Assembly (NCBI GenBank): GCA_020444075.1
Contig: JAHLLR010000041.1
Coordinates: 1 to 45,248, forward strand
DNA length: 45,248 nt
Origin: Deltaproteobacteria bacterium
GTDB taxonomy: Bacteria > Desulfobacterota > Desulfobacteria > Desulfobacterales > Desulfosarcinaceae
Reading direction: 5' to 3'
The position numbers and the translations under genes were made by a program. The notes under the pieces are model-generated. The model saw nothing but the letters and a program-made list of their open reading frames with translations, had not been told where the DNA came from and searched no databases. This document shows, piece after piece, positions 23,394 through 30,655 of the stretch (its first letter is position 1; every line of letters begins with the position of its first letter).

Positions 23394-24149
23394 ATGGAAA
23401 AGATCGACCAGAGCATCTACGATGGTTACATCAAAGCCCTCACGGACATCAGCCGGGCCATCACCTCGGATTTGTTTCTGGAAGATCTGCTCAAGCTCAT
23501 CGTCATGGTCACGGCCAAGGTCACCGGCGTGGAAATATGCTCCCTGTGGCTCATCGATGAGAATGAAAAGCCGACTAAAATCAGGCTCAAGGCTACCCAG
23601 TCCATCGATCCGGAATATATCAAAGACCGCTCCCTGAACCTCAACGAAGGGGTCGTCGGGGTTGTGGTCACCACCAAACGCCCCATCACCATCAAAAACG
23701 TGCTTCGCAGCAAACGATTCAAAGAGAAGGAGATGGCCCGTAAGCTCAAATTGATCTCCATGGTCGGTGTTCCGCTCCAGTTGAAAAATGAGAAAATCAT
23801 CGGCGTGCTTAACTGCTTTACCGCATCCCCGCATACGTTTTCCCTTACCGAGATCAACCTGCTGACGGCCGTGGCCAACCAGGCGGCAGTGGCCATCATG
23901 AATACGGAGTTGATGCTCAAAGCCAAGATCATCCAGGAGGAATTGGAAACGCGCAAGCTCATCGAACGGGCCAAGGAGATCCTGGTTCGCCGACGGAGCC
24001 TGGATGTCGACAGCGCATTTCGGTGGATACAGAAGCGAAGCATGGATAGCCGCAAATCCATGCGCGAGGTCGCCGAAGCAATCTTGCTGTCAGAGGATTT
24101 GGGATACTACTCGAGCATTCCCCACGCGTTGAAAAAAGAAAACAAATAA
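23394..24149 (+). CDS. GAF-ANTAR RNA-binding antitermination regulator
   Basis: A 251-residue protein. A GAF sensor domain spans residues about 20-165 (LIVMVTAKVTGVEICSLWLIDE, then LNEGVVGVVVTTKRPI and MVGVPLQLKNEKIIGVLNCF). A linker helix leads to a C-terminal ANTAR domain (LIERAKEILVRRRSLDVDSAF, then MDSRKSMREVAEAILLSEDL, about 190-242). ANTAR domains bind paired hexaloop RNA hairpins and prevent transcription termination, commonly at nitrogen or amine-use genes. Such a pair lies in the leader immediately downstream (24218-24271), before a glutamate synthase-like gene, so this is very likely its regulator. The GAF ligand is unknown, and no receiver domain is present. Confidence 0.88.
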   Translation: MEKIDQSIYDGYIKALTDISRAITSDLFLEDLLKLIVMVTAKVTGVEICSLWLIDENEKPTKIRLKATQSIDPEYIKDRSLNLNEGVVGVVVTTKRPITIKNVLRSKRFKEKEMARKLKLISMVGVPLQLKNEKIIGVLNCFTASPHTFSLTEINLLTAVANQAAVAIMNTELMLKAKIIQEELETRKLIERAKEILVRRRSLDVDSAFRWIQKRSMDSRKSMREVAEAILLSEDLGYYSSIPHALKKENK

Positions 24150-24168
24150 GTTATACTTAACTTCATCC

Positions 24169-24197
24169 TTGACATTAACCATTTCCGCTGATATCGA
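24169..24197 (+). promoter_or_regulatory. Candidate promoter of the ANTAR-controlled leader
   Basis: A perfect TTGACA (24169-24174) is followed after 17 bases by TATCGA (24192-24197), a weak -10. Start would fall near 24204, just before hairpin P1. Confidence 0.4.
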
Positions 24198-24217: not shown

Positions 24218-24349
24218 GTTGCACACAACGGTGTGTGTAACGGCTATACAACCGACAAAGGCGTCCGTTGTCCTGTATCAGGGGAAAGAATGCCTTTTTG
24301 TGCGTTTGGTAAGGCGACATTTCCCCGGTGAGGGAACGTCGCCTTTTTT
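24218..24349 (+). ncRNA. ANTAR-type antitermination leader: two hexaloop hairpins and two terminators
   Basis: P1 (24218-24241) has a 9-bp stem (GTTGCACAC with GTGTGTAAC, one G-U) and loop AACGGU. P2 (24248-24271) has stem ACAAC-C-GAC with GTC-C-GTTGT (one C/C mismatch) and loop AAAGGC. Both are 24 bases long, 6 bases apart, with A at loop position 1 and G at position 4, as ANTAR targets require. A competing hairpin T1 pairs AAAGGCGT (24257-24264) with ATGCCTTT (24290-24297), encloses CCTG/CAGG, and ends in five T; it cannot coexist with P2. A second terminator T2 pairs AAGGCGAC (24311-24318) with GTCGCCTT (24338-24345), with six T to 24349. The controlled gene starts at 24433. Confidence 0.8.
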
Positions 24350-24432: not shown

Positions 24433-26016
24433 ATGAATCTTCAGAGACCCAATGCAAACGAGGCACTTGAAACAAAAAATCGTTCACGTAATGTCGCCCC
24501 CCAGTCGGGGTTGTGCAGCCGTTGCATCGACGGCTGCAAGGGAAACTGTGATCTGTTCCGCGCCACATTCAGGGGCCGGGAGCTGCTGTACCCCCAACCG
24601 TTCGGTAGTATCACCGCCGGTGCCGACAAGGACTATCCCGTTGACTATTCCCATCTGAATATCAACGGGTATGCCCTGGGCGCACATGGAATTGAGCCGA
24701 ATCCGGATATGGCGACATTCCCCAGCGTGGACACGGAAACAGCCTTCGGCGTCGACAGCAAGGTAAAAATGAAGTTGCCGATCTTCACGGGAGCCCTCGG
24801 CAGCACCGATATTGCCCGAAAGAATTGGGAGCATTTTGCCATTGGGGCGGCCATCAGCGGCATTACCCTGGTGTGCGGGGAAAACGTCTGCGGTATCGAT
24901 CCTGCACTTGAATTCAATGGCAACGGGAAAGTGGCCAAATCGCCGGAAATGGATCGCCGGGTCAGAGAGTACCGTCGGTATCATGAAGGTTATGGCGACA
25001 TCCTGGTCCAGATGAACGTGGAAGACACCCGCAACGGCGTGGCGGAATACGTCATCGATAAACTCGGGGTCGAAACCATTGAATTGAAATGGGGACAGGG
25101 GGCCAAATGCATCGGTGGTGAAATCAAGGTCAACTCGCTTGAGAGGGCCATTGAACTGAAGAAACGCGGCTATATTGTCACCCCGGATCCGGAAAGCCCG
25201 GCTTTCCAGGCAGCATTCAAGGCCGGTCCGTTGAAACAGTTCGAACGTCACTCCCGACTGGGGTTCATTGATCAGGAAGGATTCATGAATGAAGTGGAAC
25301 GCCTGCGCAAAATGGGCGCCAAACGGGTCACCTTGAAGACCGGGGCCTATCCCATGCGGGAACTGGCCATGGCCATCCGCTGGTCCAGTGATGCCAAAAT
25401 CGATCTCCTCACCATAGACGGAGCGCCGGGCGGCACCGGCATGAGCCCCTGGAGAATGATGTGCGAATGGGGTGTTCCGTCCATTTACCTGCATTCAATG
25501 GCTTACGAGTTGTGCGACCGCCTGGCCAAGCGGGGAAGACCGGTACCGGACATTGCCTTTGCGGGCGGCTTTTCATCAGAGGATCATGTGTTCAAAGCGC
25601 TGGCCCTCGGCGCCCCCTACTGCAAAGCCGTTTGCATGGGTCGTGCATTGATGATTCCCGGGATGGTCGGCAAAAACACCGAGCGATGGTTAAGGGGTGA
25701 ACAGGGCGGACTCCCATCAACGGTATCCATGTTCGGGTCGACCAAGGAAGAGATCTTCATGAATTATGAAGTACTCAAGGAAAAATACGGTTCCGAAGTG
25801 GCCAATCTTCCCCTCGGGGCGGTGGGCATCTTCAGTGCGGTGGACAAAATCAAGGTCGGCCTCCAGCAAATTATGGCCGGCGCCAGAAACTGGAAGGTGG
25901 AATACATTTCCAGAAAGGACATCTTTTCGCTGACCGAAGAGTGCGCAAAGGTGACGGGAATCCCCTATGTTATGGATGCTTACCGGGAGGAGGCCCTCCA
26001 AATCATCGACGCTTGA
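24433..26016 (+). CDS. FMN-dependent glutamate synthase-like protein (GltB central domain)
   Basis: A 527-residue protein. A short cysteine-rich N-terminus (CSRCIDGCKGNC near residue 28) is followed by the FMN-binding TIM-barrel domain of glutamate synthase. Landmarks are LPIFTGALGSTDIARKNW near 115, IELKWGQGAKCIGGEIKV near 220, LLTIDGAPGGTGMSPW near 325 and FAGGFSSEDHVFKALALGAPYCK near 375. No glutaminase (class II amidotransferase) domain is present, as in archaeal-type stand-alone GltB-like proteins, so ammonia or a separate amidotransferase must supply nitrogen. Start at 24433 has GAGGA 8 bases upstream. It lies behind an ANTAR leader. True glutamate synthase activity is not proven for this subfamily. 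Confidence 0.8.
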   Translation: MNLQRPNANEALETKNRSRNVAPQSGLCSRCIDGCKGNCDLFRATFRGRELLYPQPFGSITAGADKDYPVDYSHLNINGYALGAHGIEPNPDMATFPSVDTETAFGVDSKVKMKLPIFTGALGSTDIARKNWEHFAIGAAISGITLVCGENVCGIDPALEFNGNGKVAKSPEMDRRVREYRRYHEGYGDILVQMNVEDTRNGVAEYVIDKLGVETIELKWGQGAKCIGGEIKVNSLERAIELKKRGYIVTPDPESPAFQAAFKAGPLKQFERHSRLGFIDQEGFMNEVERLRKMGAKRVTLKTGAYPMRELAMAIRWSSDAKIDLLTIDGAPGGTGMSPWRMMCEWGVPSIYLHSMAYELCDRLAKRGRPVPDIAFAGGFSSEDHVFKALALGAPYCKAVCMGRALMIPGMVGKNTERWLRGEQGGLPSTVSMFGSTKEEIFMNYEVLKEKYGSEVANLPLGAVGIFSAVDKIKVGLQQIMAGARNWKVEYISRKDIFSLTEECAKVTGIPYVMDAYREEALQIIDA

Positions 26017-26051: not shown

Positions 26052-26078
26052 GGGGCGGTACCCTACCGCCCCTTTTTT
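26052..26078 (+). terminator. Terminator after the glutamate synthase-like gene
   Basis: GGGGCGGTA, loop CCC, then TACCGCCCC gives a perfect 9-bp stem followed by six T. Confidence 0.92.
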
Positions 26079-26205: not shown

Positions 26206-29175
26206 ATGATTGTAACTGAAACCCCGATCCCCCGGGAATTCTATTCCCATTTCAAGCTGTTCCATGAAATGATGGCCATAAAGGTGAAAGAGATCCTTTT
26301 GGTGTCGAGCCCTTACGATGCCTTCATCATGGAGGAAGATGGCAGTCTTGCGTCTCGTATAATAAATGAATACAGTGGATTGAACTTAAGCCATCCGCCA
26401 CGGGTCACCCAAACCGCCTCGGCATTGGAAGCCCTTTCGATTCTTGGGCGAAAAGAGTTTGACCTGGTCATTACCACGCCCTACCTGGAGGAGATGGATG
26501 CCTTTTCCCTGTCCAGAAAGATCAAGCATGCCCGCCCGACCTTGCCCGTCATTCTTCTGAGTCATACCCCCCGAGGTGTTTTTCCACTGCCTGAAAACAG
26601 GGATTGCAGCGGCATCGACAAGGTCTTCATCTGGTCAGGCAATTCGGATCTGCTCCTGGCGCTGGTTAAAAATACCGAAGACCATCTGAATGTGGCCAAC
26701 GACACATTGAATGCCAAGGTTCGAGTATTGATTCTGGTGGAAGACTCACCGGTCTACTACTCATCATTCCTGCCCCTGATATACAAGGAAGTTGTCAAAC
26801 AGACCCAGGCAGTTCTCGGTGTCGGCCTGAATGAAGAGCATCGGTTGCTGAGGATGCGTTCCAGGCCTAAAATACTATTGGCCAACACCTACGAGGATGC
26901 ATTAACGCTCTATGACAGGTACCGGTCCTATCTGCTTGGAATCATCTCCGACACCCGAATCCCTAAAGATGGCACATTGACTGAAAACGCCGGTTTCCTG
27001 CTGCTTTCCCAAATTAAAAAGGACATTCCGGATCTGCCGATGGTGCTGCTCAGTTCCGAACCGGGAAACCGCGACCTCGCCATGCGCATACCAGCGGTGT
27101 TCCTCGACAAGAACGCACCCCACCTGCTGTCCGAACTACACGATTTTTTTATGAACGATTTGGGATTCGGCGATTTTATCTTCCGCATGCCCGACCAAAG
27201 GGAAATCGCCAGGGCCGCAGATCTTCGATCGCTCCAGGCGCAGCTGCCCCAAATACCCGATGAATCCTTGTGGTACCATGCCCGGCGAAACCATTTTTCC
27301 AGTTGGATCATGGGCCGGTCAGAAATTGCCCTTGCGTCTAAATTCAGGGAGGTCAAGGCCAGTGATTTCAATGATGCCGAATCCCTGCGCGGCTACATCA
27401 TCTCCAGCATCAATGACATGCGTAAATGGCAGCAAAAAGGCGTCGTCGCCAAGTTCAACAAAAACTCCTTCGACGCGGAAATAATGGATTTCGTTAAGAT
27501 CGGCCATGGCTCACTGGGCGGCAAAGCCCGCGGCCTGGCTTTCATGGCGGCACTGTTGCATCAGAACATGGGGATTTATGAAAAGTACCCCGACGTCACC
27601 ATCAGGATTCCCAAGACGCTGGTTATCAGCACGGACAGCTTCGAGGCGTTCATTCAGATGAACAGCCTGAAAGGGTTGGCCAACCAGTCGATCCCCGATG
27701 AAAAGATAAAGGAACGTTTTCTCGGCGGCGAATTGCCGGATTGGCTGGTCAGCGACCTGAAAGTCTACCTGTCACAGGTCAACACCCCCCTTTCCATACG
27801 TTCGTCCAGCCTGCTGGAGGATGCCCAGTTCCAGCCCTATGCCGGGTTGTATAAGACATATATGATCCCAAACAATCATTCTTCGTTCAGCAGGCGGCTT
27901 GATCACCTCTTAACGGCGGTAAAACTTGTCTACGCCTCCACGTATTACGAGGGTCCCCGGGCATTCGCCAGGTCGACGTCCAACAACCCCCAGGAAGAAG
28001 TAATGGCGGTGATCATCCAGGAGCTTGCCGGCGACACCTACGGCGATTTTTTCTACCCGGCTGTCTCCGGGGTGGCCCAATCCCACAATTTCTATCCGAT
28101 TGCGCCGATGACGCCTGAAGAAGGCATTGTCCATATTGCCTTGGGACTTGGAAAAACGGTGGTCGAAGGAGAGAAAACCCTTCGGTTTTCCCCCAAATAT
28201 CCGACTGTTCTCCCCCAGTTCTCGATGGTCGATGATATCCTGAAAAATTCCCAGCGCCATTTTTATGCCTTGCAGATCAGCAACTATCCGGAGACGCTGA
28301 ACTTCGAACAACATGGCAATTTGAATAAACGGGATCTGAATGACGCCCAGAAGGAATATCCCGTTATCTCGTTGGCCAGTACCTATGTCCCCGATGAGCA
28401 CCGCATCCGGGATACCAGTACCGTAAACGGTACCAAGGTGCTGACATTCGCCCAGATCCTCAAATATGGATCTTTCCCGCTGCCCGAATTGCTCATGGAC
28501 ATGCAGGACCTGGGGAAAAAAGGGATGGGGTGCCCGGTGGAAATTGAGTTTTCGGTTAACCTGGGTTCACCTGCCAGAAAAAAGACCGTTTTCAACTTTC
28601 TCCAGATCAGGCCCATGGTGGCTGGCAATGACTGTTTCGACGTTCAGATCGATTCCGAGGATATCCGTAAGGCCTTCTGCTGTTCCCGGCAGGCGTTAGG
28701 AAATGGGAAAAATGAGGAGATTGCAGACATCATTTATGTAAAACCGGATACCTTCAAGGCAGAGGCGACTGTTCAGATGGCCGCCGAAATCGGCCAGATG
28801 AACGCCGAGTTGATCAAATCAAATCGCCGATACCTGCTCGCAGGTCCCGGACGATGGGGGTCATCCGACCGTTGGCTGGGCATCCCGGTTCAATGGCAGC
28901 ACATCTCAGGAGCAGGGGCGATCATTGAACTGAGAAATGACAAGTTGAAGGCCGACCCATCCCAGGGGTCTCATTTTTTTCAGAATATTACATCGCAGGG
29001 TGTTTTTTACATCACGGTCACCGAAGGCTCGGAGGATTTTTGGGATTGGCACTGGCTCAATGGGCTTCCGGTAATTCGTGAAATGACCTTTATGCGACAT
29101 GTCCGTCTGGATTACCCCATGACCATTAAAATTGACGGGAAAGCGTCCCGATGCGTCATGGTCAAACCCGATTGA
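26206..29175 (+). CDS. Receiver-like domains fused to a PEP synthase/PPDK nucleotide-binding domain
   Basis: A 989-residue protein. Two receiver-like regions come first. The first (about residues 25-130) is degenerate, with VITTPYLEEMD where the phospho-aspartate should be. The second (about 165-315) keeps an acidic pocket (LILVEDSP) and a candidate aspartate (GIISDTRIPKDG). The central part resembles the ATP-grasp PEP/pyruvate-binding domain of PEP synthase and PPDK: LGGKARGLAFMAALL near 435, PLSIRSSSLLEDAQFQPYAGLY near 530, VIIQELAGDTYGDFFYP near 603 and FLQIRPMV near 800. The swivelling phospho-histidine domain and C-terminal PEP-binding barrel of true PEP synthase are not evident, so normal PEP synthesis is unlikely. 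It sits between two nitrogen-assimilation genes. Role unknown; a regulated nucleotide-binding or phosphotransfer protein is possible. Confidence 0.75.
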   Translation: MIVTETPIPREFYSHFKLFHEMMAIKVKEILLVSSPYDAFIMEEDGSLASRIINEYSGLNLSHPPRVTQTASALEALSILGRKEFDLVITTPYLEEMDAFSLSRKIKHARPTLPVILLSHTPRGVFPLPENRDCSGIDKVFIWSGNSDLLLALVKNTEDHLNVANDTLNAKVRVLILVEDSPVYYSSFLPLIYKEVVKQTQAVLGVGLNEEHRLLRMRSRPKILLANTYEDALTLYDRYRSYLLGIISDTRIPKDGTLTENAGFLLLSQIKKDIPDLPMVLLSSEPGNRDLAMRIPAVFLDKNAPHLLSELHDFFMNDLGFGDFIFRMPDQREIARAADLRSLQAQLPQIPDESLWYHARRNHFSSWIMGRSEIALASKFREVKASDFNDAESLRGYIISSINDMRKWQQKGVVAKFNKNSFDAEIMDFVKIGHGSLGGKARGLAFMAALLHQNMGIYEKYPDVTIRIPKTLVISTDSFEAFIQMNSLKGLANQSIPDEKIKERFLGGELPDWLVSDLKVYLSQVNTPLSIRSSSLLEDAQFQPYAGLYKTYMIPNNHSSFSRRLDHLLTAVKLVYASTYYEGPRAFARSTSNNPQEEVMAVIIQELAGDTYGDFFYPAVSGVAQSHNFYPIAPMTPEEGIVHIALGLGKTVVEGEKTLRFSPKYPTVLPQFSMVDDILKNSQRHFYALQISNYPETLNFEQHGNLNKRDLNDAQKEYPVISLASTYVPDEHRIRDTSTVNGTKVLTFAQILKYGSFPLPELLMDMQDLGKKGMGCPVEIEFSVNLGSPARKKTVFNFLQIRPMVAGNDCFDVQIDSEDIRKAFCCSRQALGNGKNEEIADIIYVKPDTFKAEATVQMAAEIGQMNAELIKSNRRYLLAGPGRWGSSDRWLGIPVQWQHISGAGAIIELRNDKLKADPSQGSHFFQNITSQGVFYITVTEGSEDFWDWHWLNGLPVIREMTFMRHVRLDYPMTIKIDGKASRCVMVKPD

Positions 29176-29305
29176 AACGCCATGATCAGCAGGAAGCATC
29201 GCTGCAGAACTGCATGCGTTTCTCCGGTTTATGTTTCCCCAGGCAACATATCTTTCGCAAACTAGTGAGTGTTTCCATTCATCAACATTTGAAAAGGAGG
29301 TGTTT

Positions 29306-30655
29306 ATGTCAGACATCCTGAAAACGATCGAAGCCAGAGATCCTTCTGAAAAGGAATTCCAGCAAGCGGTGCACGAGGTCATTGAATCGGTCAAGCCGGT
29401 TTTGGATCGAAACCCTGAGTATCGGCACAACGCTGTTCTTGAAAGAATCACGGAACCCGAACGCGTGATCATGTTTAGGGTACCCTGGATGGATGATCAG
29501 GGAATGGTGCATGTCAACCGTGGATTCAGAATCGAAATGAACAGCGCCATCGGTCCCTATAAAGGGGGGCTTCGTTTCCACCCCTCCGTCAATTTGAGTA
29601 TTCTCAAGTTTCTGGCTTTCGAACAGGTATTCAAGAATGCACTCACGACCTTGTCCATGGGGGGGGGGAAAGGAGGTTCCGACTTCGATCCCAAAGGCAA
29701 ATCCGACAATGAAGTAATGCGGTTCTGCCAAAACTTCATGGCGGAGCTCTTCCGCCACATCGGACCCAATACGGATGTGCCGGCAGGCGATATCGGTGTG
29801 GGTGCCAGGGAAATCGGCTTTCTTTTCGGCATGTACAAAAAACTGCGCAACGAGTTCACCGGGGTGCTCACCGGCAAGAGCCTGGGGTGGGGGGGAAGCT
29901 TGATCCGGCCTGAAGCCACGGGCTATGGCGCTGTCTATTTTGCATCGGAAATGCTGGCCACGCGCAATGATACCCTGGAGGGCAAGACCTGCCTGGTTTC
30001 GGGTTCAGGGAATGTAGCCCAATACACCGTTGAAAAAATCATCGATCTGGGCGGCAAGGTAGTCACTTTTTCGGACTCTTCGGGCTACATTTTCGATGAG
30101 GAGGGCATCGATCGGGACAAACTGGACTACGTCAAACGCATTAAGAACCTGAGAAGAGGTCGAATCCGGGAATACATCGACAAATACTCGGCGGCGGTCT
30201 ATACGGAGGCGGATTCTACCCTGGGGCACAATCCCTTGTGGAACCATGCGGCCGATTCCGCCTTCCCCTGCGCCACCCAGAACGAGATCAACGAAAATGA
30301 TGCCAGAAACCTGATCCGCAACGGGGTGACGCTGGTGTGCGAAGGGGCCAACATGCCCTGCACGCCCGCTGCCATCGACAGTTTCCTGGACAAGAAGATT
30401 CTCTATGCGCCGGGGAAAGCGGCCAACGCCGGCGGAGTTGCCGTTTCCGGACTCGAAATGGCCCAGAACAGCATGCGGCTCAATTGGCCCCGAGAAGAGG
30501 TCGATGAACGTCTCAAAATCATCATGAAAAGCATCCACCAGACCTGCTTAGATGCTTCAGCGGAATATGGAGAACCGGGAAACTATTTTATCGGTGCCAA
30601 CATTGCCGGCTTTGTTAAAGTGGTCAATGCCATGCTCGATCAGGGACTGGTATAA
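29306..30655 (+). CDS. gdhA: Glutamate dehydrogenase (hexameric, NADP-type family)
   Basis: A 449-residue enzyme interconverting 2-oxoglutarate plus ammonia and glutamate. It matches the E. coli GdhA class: GFRIEMNSAIGPYKGGLRFH near residue 78, the catalytic-lysine region SMGGGKGGSDFDPKGKSD near 120, PAGDIGVGAREIGFLFG near 160 and the dinucleotide motif VSGSGNVAQYT near 230. Start at 29306 has AAAAGGAGG 7 bases upstream; an in-frame start 25 codons earlier lacks one. The 130-bp gap before it has an imperfect hairpin (AAACGCCATG near 29174 with CATGCGTTT) without a T tract. With the glutamate synthase-like gene it makes this a nitrogen-assimilation cluster. Cofactor choice is inferred from family. 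Confidence 0.94.
   Translation: MSDILKTIEARDPSEKEFQQAVHEVIESVKPVLDRNPEYRHNAVLERITEPERVIMFRVPWMDDQGMVHVNRGFRIEMNSAIGPYKGGLRFHPSVNLSILKFLAFEQVFKNALTTLSMGGGKGGSDFDPKGKSDNEVMRFCQNFMAELFRHIGPNTDVPAGDIGVGAREIGFLFGMYKKLRNEFTGVLTGKSLGWGGSLIRPEATGYGAVYFASEMLATRNDTLEGKTCLVSGSGNVAQYTVEKIIDLGGKVVTFSDSSGYIFDEEGIDRDKLDYVKRIKNLRRGRIREYIDKYSAAVYTEADSTLGHNPLWNHAADSAFPCATQNEINENDARNLIRNGVTLVCEGANMPCTPAAIDSFLDKKILYAPGKAANAGGVAVSGLEMAQNSMRLNWPREEVDERLKIIMKSIHQTCLDASAEYGEPGNYFIGANIAGFVKVVNAMLDQGLV

Follow-up and report, generated by a model that had tools for sequence, protein, structure and literature searches.

Between a gene for a GAF-ANTAR protein and a gene for a glutamate-synthase-like protein, the DNA of a Desulfosarcinaceae bacterium carries two small hairpins with hexaloops, followed by two terminators. 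Is this region a switch by which the ANTAR protein controls the downstream gene, or do these structures just end the transcript of the ANTAR gene? We followed this question in a stretch of 45,248 nucleotides, named the window in the following, and in loci of other genomes (L numbers). All positions are those of the window, and all features lie on its plus strand unless another strand is given.

The GAF-ANTAR regulator and the presumed target gene

The gene at 23394..24149 encodes a protein of 251 aa, which was matched by Pfam GAF_2 (67.6 bits) and by the ANTAR domain PF03861 (70.7 bits, curated cut-off 27.3). The earlier note had read it as a GAF-ANTAR gene with the GAF domain as sensor, and both matches agree with this. 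A genome-wide search for the ANTAR domain gave one match, this gene. In the AF2 model (mean pLDDT 80.8), the protein consists of the GAF region, a long helix (residues 151-201) and two further ANTAR helices. Residues R187, K188, K194, M217, and R220 were invariant in 47 sequences and are the presumed equivalents of R142, K143, K149, M172, and R175 of EutV; the EutV contact numbering was taken from PMC8934654 and matched with an inferred offset of two. EutV Tyr164 corresponds to F209 in the window protein and to Y in the consensus, and the equivalent of EutV K147 is R. The window protein differs at the positions of EutV E160, R168, N173, and R177, which are V205, Q213, D218, and S222.

Among solved GAF domains, the GAF of PtsP from two species matched, and lower down those of the NifA-like proteins Nlh1 and Nlh2. 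The NifA family profile scored 55 bits on the window protein, far below its cut-off of 529. The GAF domains of NifA and PtsP sense 2-oxoglutarate and glutamine. Because of this resemblance and of the targets found in relatives (see below), our guess is that the signal might be a metabolite of nitrogen status, e.g., 2-oxoglutarate or glutamine.

The presumed target gene (24433..26016, 527 aa) belongs to the glutamate-synthase-like FMN family, and its homologue adjoins the hairpin motif in relatives. The PF01645 match had 57.9 bits (cut-off 20.4) and was partial, covering profile positions 186-309 of 369. In glutamate synthase (GOGAT), a 3Fe-4S cysteine motif follows the FMN barrel. By reading, these cysteines are absent from the window protein, while in the other PF01645 protein of the genome (G000:C72, 207 bits) ferredoxin-type cysteines can be recognised, as can the cysteine-rich region known from true glutamate synthases. 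The chain of the window protein also gave no Pfam match to a GATase (amidotransferase) domain. A PDB search with the enzyme model (mean pLDDT 70.4) revealed resemblance to FMN hydroxy-acid oxidases and IPP isomerase 2, which names no activity. We therefore address the protein as a glutamate-synthase-like FMN-family enzyme and assign no reaction to it. In 31 sequences of this family, which lacks the canonical 3Fe-4S cysteines, an N-terminal Cys-x2-Cys-x3-Cys-x3-Cys was invariant (C28, C31, C35, C39).

Further downstream, a 989-aa protein (26206-29175), in which a receiver-like stretch is joined to a PPDK_N ATP-binding domain, is encoded between the target gene and the gene for an NADP glutamate dehydrogenase (29231-30655). 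The same trio was present in L027, L028, L061, and L088. We rejected the idea that glutamate dehydrogenase is another target within the window: its gene was not preceded by a model match, and the terminator scan placed a terminator-like hairpin (26052..26072) behind the first gene.

Hairpins P1 and P2 and their conservation

Hairpin P1 (24218..24241) has a stem of 9 bp and the loop AACGGU (24227-24232); it was found by sequence reading, pair scan, covariance model, and covariation. Hairpin P2 (24248..24271) has the loop AAAGGC (24257-24262) and one C.C mismatch, and it was found by reading, pair scan, folding, and covariance model. Both hairpins are 24 nt long, both hexaloops carry A1 and G4, and each loop is closed by a C:G pair. 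P1 and P2 are 6 nt apart, and P1 starts 69 nt beyond the ANTAR stop codon, whose last base is 24149. Our re-reading confirmed the original description of these hairpins. A third hexaloop upstream of P1 was not found in the window.

Is such a pair of hairpins significant? In dinucleotide-shuffled versions of the window, the mean number of pairs of this shape was 0.21, and 18 of 100 shuffles contained at least one; the real window holds one further hexaloop pair of such shape on the minus strand. We therefore dropped shape alone as evidence. This chance level is in line with a simple alternative: T1 and T2, the two terminators, would serve only to finish transcription of antar, the gene downstream would be unrelated to them, and the hexaloops would be incidental. 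T1 and T2 come straight after the antar stop, and terminators behind genes are ordinary. Across the window, no Rfam family reached its gathering threshold. Three weak matches fell into the region, among them narK RNA (RF03032), which overlaps P1 and P2 with 18.5 bits (gathering threshold 43.2, E 0.2).

As checks of the site, the earlier note had named a covariance-model search and a comparison of related loci for compensatory changes, and it had named lack of conservation of the hexaloops in relatives as what would speak against it. We used two covariance models. With model R1, a set of 80 named loci, most of them from Desulfobacterota, yielded 53 matches. Model R2 was built from 13 relatives, and the window and its near relatives were left out to avoid circularity. 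With R2, nothing but the P1/P2 site (E 3.9e-6) was matched in the window up to an E value of 10, and this site was the only significant match in the whole genome of 5.6 Mb (E 4.8e-4, runner-up E 0.88). R1 also matched the minus strand of P1 (E 0.022); R2 gave no such match. Further ANTAR targets in the same genome were not accepted, the next-best model matches having E values of 0.84 and 0.88. Although the shape alone is at chance level, the site is not a product of chance, because the model lacking the near relatives still finds it.

In the family of the window organism, 22 of 30 genomes (that of the window included) had an ANTAR domain, and the dual motif followed 19 of the 23 ANTAR loci in this set. 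The alignment of these 19 sequences contained 41 double-change cells in the named structure, compared to 19.3 in shuffles, and none of 500 shuffles reached the observed value. Six of eight P1 pairs were altered on both sides in these loci. The P2 core GAC/GUC was nearly invariant, with one compensated pair, and hence gives little information on covariation. For a wider set, whose alignment had been fitted to model R1, 90 double-change cells were counted versus 32.8 after shuffling (again 0 of 500). P1 thus shows the compensatory changes that had been looked for, and it covaries although it is part of neither terminator, which argues against hexaloops that are incidental to the end of the antar transcript.

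We collected 119 motif instances, 93 of them distinct. A1 and G4 were present in both loops of 84 of the 93, a number that is partly circular since most instances were picked by a model containing the loops. The hexaloops are conserved in relatives. In the family leaders L013 and L021, the P2 loop retains G4 and its first base is G rather than A (GACGGC, GAUGGC). A less dense search with R2 across the phylum, covering 297 genomes, yielded 13 at E up to 0.001.

In seven loci from two genera (L006, L007, L008, L011, L015, L018, and L019), the region downstream of the ANTAR gene contains a further, third hexaloop hairpin (GUC-AAYGNN-GAC), which precedes P1 by about 36-44 nt. A scan for upstream hexaloops gave 8 of 93 versus 2 in shuffled sequences; of the eight, L097 and L061 look incidental, and the stem in L006 is too short for the scan.

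The gene association is equally regular. A glutamate-synthase-like ORF was next in 46 of 49 motif-bearing ANTAR loci. Of the three exceptions, in L080 the contig breaks off within a gene that starts to encode the same protein (BLASTP, 90.8% identity to the homologue in L033 across 87 residues), in L048 a FlpD-like protein begins (36% over 122 residues to L137, BLASTP), and in L099 the contig edge is reached. No accepted motif was found at 31 of the 80 ANTAR loci examined; four of these 31 have a glutamate-synthase-like ORF, in all cases on the other strand. A sub-threshold motif was seen ahead of a minus-strand glutamate-synthase-like gene in L098 and L101 (E 0.32 and 0.24), while no hexaloop was found upstream of the glutamate-synthase-like ORF in L036 and L038. 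In L075, motif and target lie 3.4 kb away from antar.

We fetched 22 motif sites for closer inspection of the genes downstream. The motif precedes a glutamine synthetase gene in L138 and, directly behind an ANTAR gene, gltB in L151. In L012 it stands directly before a glutamate dehydrogenase gene (75.8% identity over 425 residues to the window enzyme, BLASTP). In L152 (motif E 0.014), a protein that reads like GlxB, with no Pfam match, is followed by a ferredoxin-type PF01645 protein. The GXGXG protein behind the motif in L147 had an amidotransferase match below the Pfam cut-off and was not counted as a firm target. From these genes, the switch most likely serves ammonia assimilation. It may also be nitrogen-responsive, as the earlier note had proposed; the glutamine synthetase, GltB, and glutamate dehydrogenase targets of relatives would agree with this. 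The presence of the motif ahead of targets away from antar (L075, L098, L101, glutamine synthetase and others elsewhere) is a further point against mere ends of the antar transcript.

A different operon, FlpD - MTHFR C-terminal - MTHFR, follows the motif in L137, L140, L145, and L153 and also in L135, L141, L144, L148, and L048; in L153 another PF01645 protein comes next. These calls are based on Pfam for three L137 genes and one L153 gene, on BLASTP for L048, and on ORF similarity for the rest. The sites would link the switch to one-carbon metabolism besides nitrogen.

Among 291 genomes of the order, 115 had both ANTAR and motif, 16 the motif only, 53 ANTAR only, and 107 neither, corresponding to an odds ratio of 14.5, uncorrected for kinship. 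The motif was thus absent in 53 of 168 genomes with ANTAR, and ANTAR was absent in 16 of 131 genomes with the motif; some of the genomes are incomplete and the filters were strict.

Presumed leader promoter, overlap of P2 with T1, and terminator T2

A -35-like TTGACA (24169..24174), found by reading and followed by a weak -10 about 17 nt downstream, is the presumed leader promoter. The -10 of the window itself is poor, and a generic promoter scan of the window did not report the element; it gave 24129-24157 instead, no more than chance would produce (one site versus 2.3 expected). Of the 93 motif instances, 71 had TTGA[CT] at a distance of 50-75 nt ahead of the P1 loop (shuffle mean 6.2), together with a TAA-rich -10 separated from it by 17 nt. 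Because of this element before P1, it is very probable that the leader is transcribed from a promoter of its own and not only as the tail of antar. Together with the covariation of P1 and the distant targets, this leaves hardly any weight for the view that T1 and T2 only end the antar transcript, which we consider extremely improbable. The promoter spacer often contains a dyad like TTAGT-N4-CTAA that overlaps the -10 (L030, L095, L062, L093). This dyad is perhaps an operator through which a transcription factor would act on the leader as well.

T1 is an intrinsic terminator at about 24257..24299 with a fold of -16.3 to -17 kcal/mol. Since its 5' arm consists of the P2 loop and the P2 3' strand, P2 and T1 are mutually exclusive as judged from their base pairs. 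In a strict test, the overlap of P2 and T1 was present in 90 of 93 related motifs, versus a mean of 4.6 in the shuffled control. A looser test gave 93 of 93 and was discarded, as its shuffled control averaged 54 of 93.

The second intrinsic terminator, T2 (24311..24349, fold -19.2 kcal/mol, U6 tail), lies between P2 and the target gene, is separate from P2, and has no hexaloop of its own. The earlier note had treated the terminators after the hairpins alike. Both are indeed present, but T1 alone overlaps P2. A scan for a second terminator up to 110 nt after T1 reported 7 of 93 leaders, namely five of the Desulfosarcina group (window included) and the weaker L018 and L144; in L030, a second terminator missed by the scan was seen by eye.

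One binding event might disarm both terminators: once P2 is held, the 3' half of T1 would lose its partner and could capture the 5' arm of T2 in an anti-T2 helix (24281..24326, fold -17.3 kcal/mol). Hairpins of the T1 3' half with the T2 5' arm had -13.2 to -18.1 kcal/mol in all six T2 leaders. With P2 formed, the best fold of the window was of the anti-T2 type (-25.5 overall versus -18.7 for T2 alone) and the same was true for L026, but T2 won energetically in the other four leaders (L027, L028, L017, L030), and L017 preferred another fold even before the 3' arm of T2 was made. When T1 halves were swapped, they did equally well or better in 2, 12, 12, 21, 19, and 38 of 87 cases (L001, which is the window, L027, L026, L028, L017, and L030); since five of the six leaders are closely related, these ranks cannot be treated as independent values. 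In L026, L017, and L030, the T2 arm was matched by its shuffled versions in 73, 49, and 47 of 500 cases. Because T2 wins in four of six leaders and swapped halves often match, we regard such a relay from T1 to T2 as a hypothesis and not as a finding, and rather doubt it. With similar reserve, the Desulfosarcina leader could be seen as a relay in which one contact opens two gates in series, while a neighbouring genus has a third hexaloop instead, the number of gates and grips being tuned by lineage.

The proposed switch and its comparison with known systems

We consider it very likely that the glutamate-synthase-like gene is controlled here by an ANTAR antitermination switch of the one-component type with a GAF sensor, as the earlier note had proposed. 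This reading is supported because the ANTAR gene is the single one found in the genome, the motif covaries, T1 overlaps P2 (90/93), and the target gene is conserved alongside (46/49). These parts, their conservation and covariation, the mutual exclusion of P2 and T1, and the link with the target gene are features of the DNA itself. The promoter just behind the GAF-ANTAR gene would give rise to the leader RNA. Without active GAF-ANTAR, the AAAGGCGUC strand of the P2 region would pair with the downstream GCCUUUUU to form T1, and transcription would stop. When the GAF ligand is sensed, the GAF-ANTAR protein, by analogy a dimer, would grip the A1/G4 hexaloops of P1 and P2. The bound P2 would be held together, the 5' arm of T1 would be occupied, and the polymerase would proceed into the glutamate-synthase-like gene.

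We infer RNA binding, dimerisation, and the sign of control from EutV and NasR. ANTAR regulation via sequestration in trans is also known. The protein might accordingly bind the leader with another outcome, i.e., with opposite sign, by translational control, or with release by sequestration in trans, and ANTAR RNAs of actinobacteria in many cases overlap with the ribosome site or the start codon (PMC8164766). P2 and T1, however, share one strand in 90 of 93 cases, which is the classical layout of antitermination (PMC3369931), and we judge another outcome improbable.

The antitermination switch would combine an orphan GAF sensor with an RNA target beside it, in a sulfate-reducer lineage, the genome having a single ANTAR gene and a single significant site. 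Because of this one-to-one relation, ligand, binding, and read-through are directly testable. If the regulon in relatives (glutamine synthetase, GltB, glutamate dehydrogenase, and the methylene-THF reductase operon) is real, this would mean that an RNA switch controls ammonia assimilation in many Desulfobacterota.

Related systems are known from other bacteria. In Geobacter, a former deltaproteobacterium, ANTAR control of the GnfR type acts on nif and nitrogen genes, and the control of nitrogen genes is shared with the case described here. The GnfR type is, however, a receiver-ANTAR protein with a histidine kinase, unlike the GAF-ANTAR protein of the window. Desulfotomaculum reducens, which belongs to another phylum than the window organism, has the same kind of RNA with glutamate synthase genes. 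These RNAs are part of the published set with dual hexaloops, terminator overlap, and a link to nitrogen genes (PMC3369931), and the A1/G4 hexaloop rule is likewise published (PMC8164766 and PMC7496416). The window site shows all of the RNA features that can be examined in the sequence.

A search of the literature for the term GAF-ANTAR found one paper, PMC7496416, according to which two of the one-component ANTAR proteins, a group with NIT, PAS, or GAF sensors, had been characterised by 2020, PAL and NasR. Among the literature matches listed, one search gave the 2012 paper (PMC3369931) as the only one that seemed relevant by title, in another no title dealt with ANTAR in sulfate reducers, and the supplementary tables of PMC3369931 may already list Desulfobacterota sites. 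Beyond what is published would be the lineage, the GAF sensor beside its target, and two lineage-specific variants of the leader, the tandem terminator and the third hexaloop.

NasR of Klebsiella oxytoca resembles the window protein as a one-component ANTAR protein with a two-hairpin RNA, a role in nitrogen metabolism, and C:G closing of the loops as in the SELEX motif, but has a nitrate-sensing NIT domain instead of GAF (PMC7496416). The eut system of Enterococcus faecalis with EutV has in common with our case the ANTAR domain, two A1/G4 hexaloop hairpins, the overlap of P2 with a terminator, and the presumed equivalents of several RNA-contact residues. As described by Ramesh 2012 (PMC3369931) and Walshe 2022 (PMC8934654), EutV has a phosphorylated receiver, whereas the window shows a GAF sensor, a second terminator T2, and another target.
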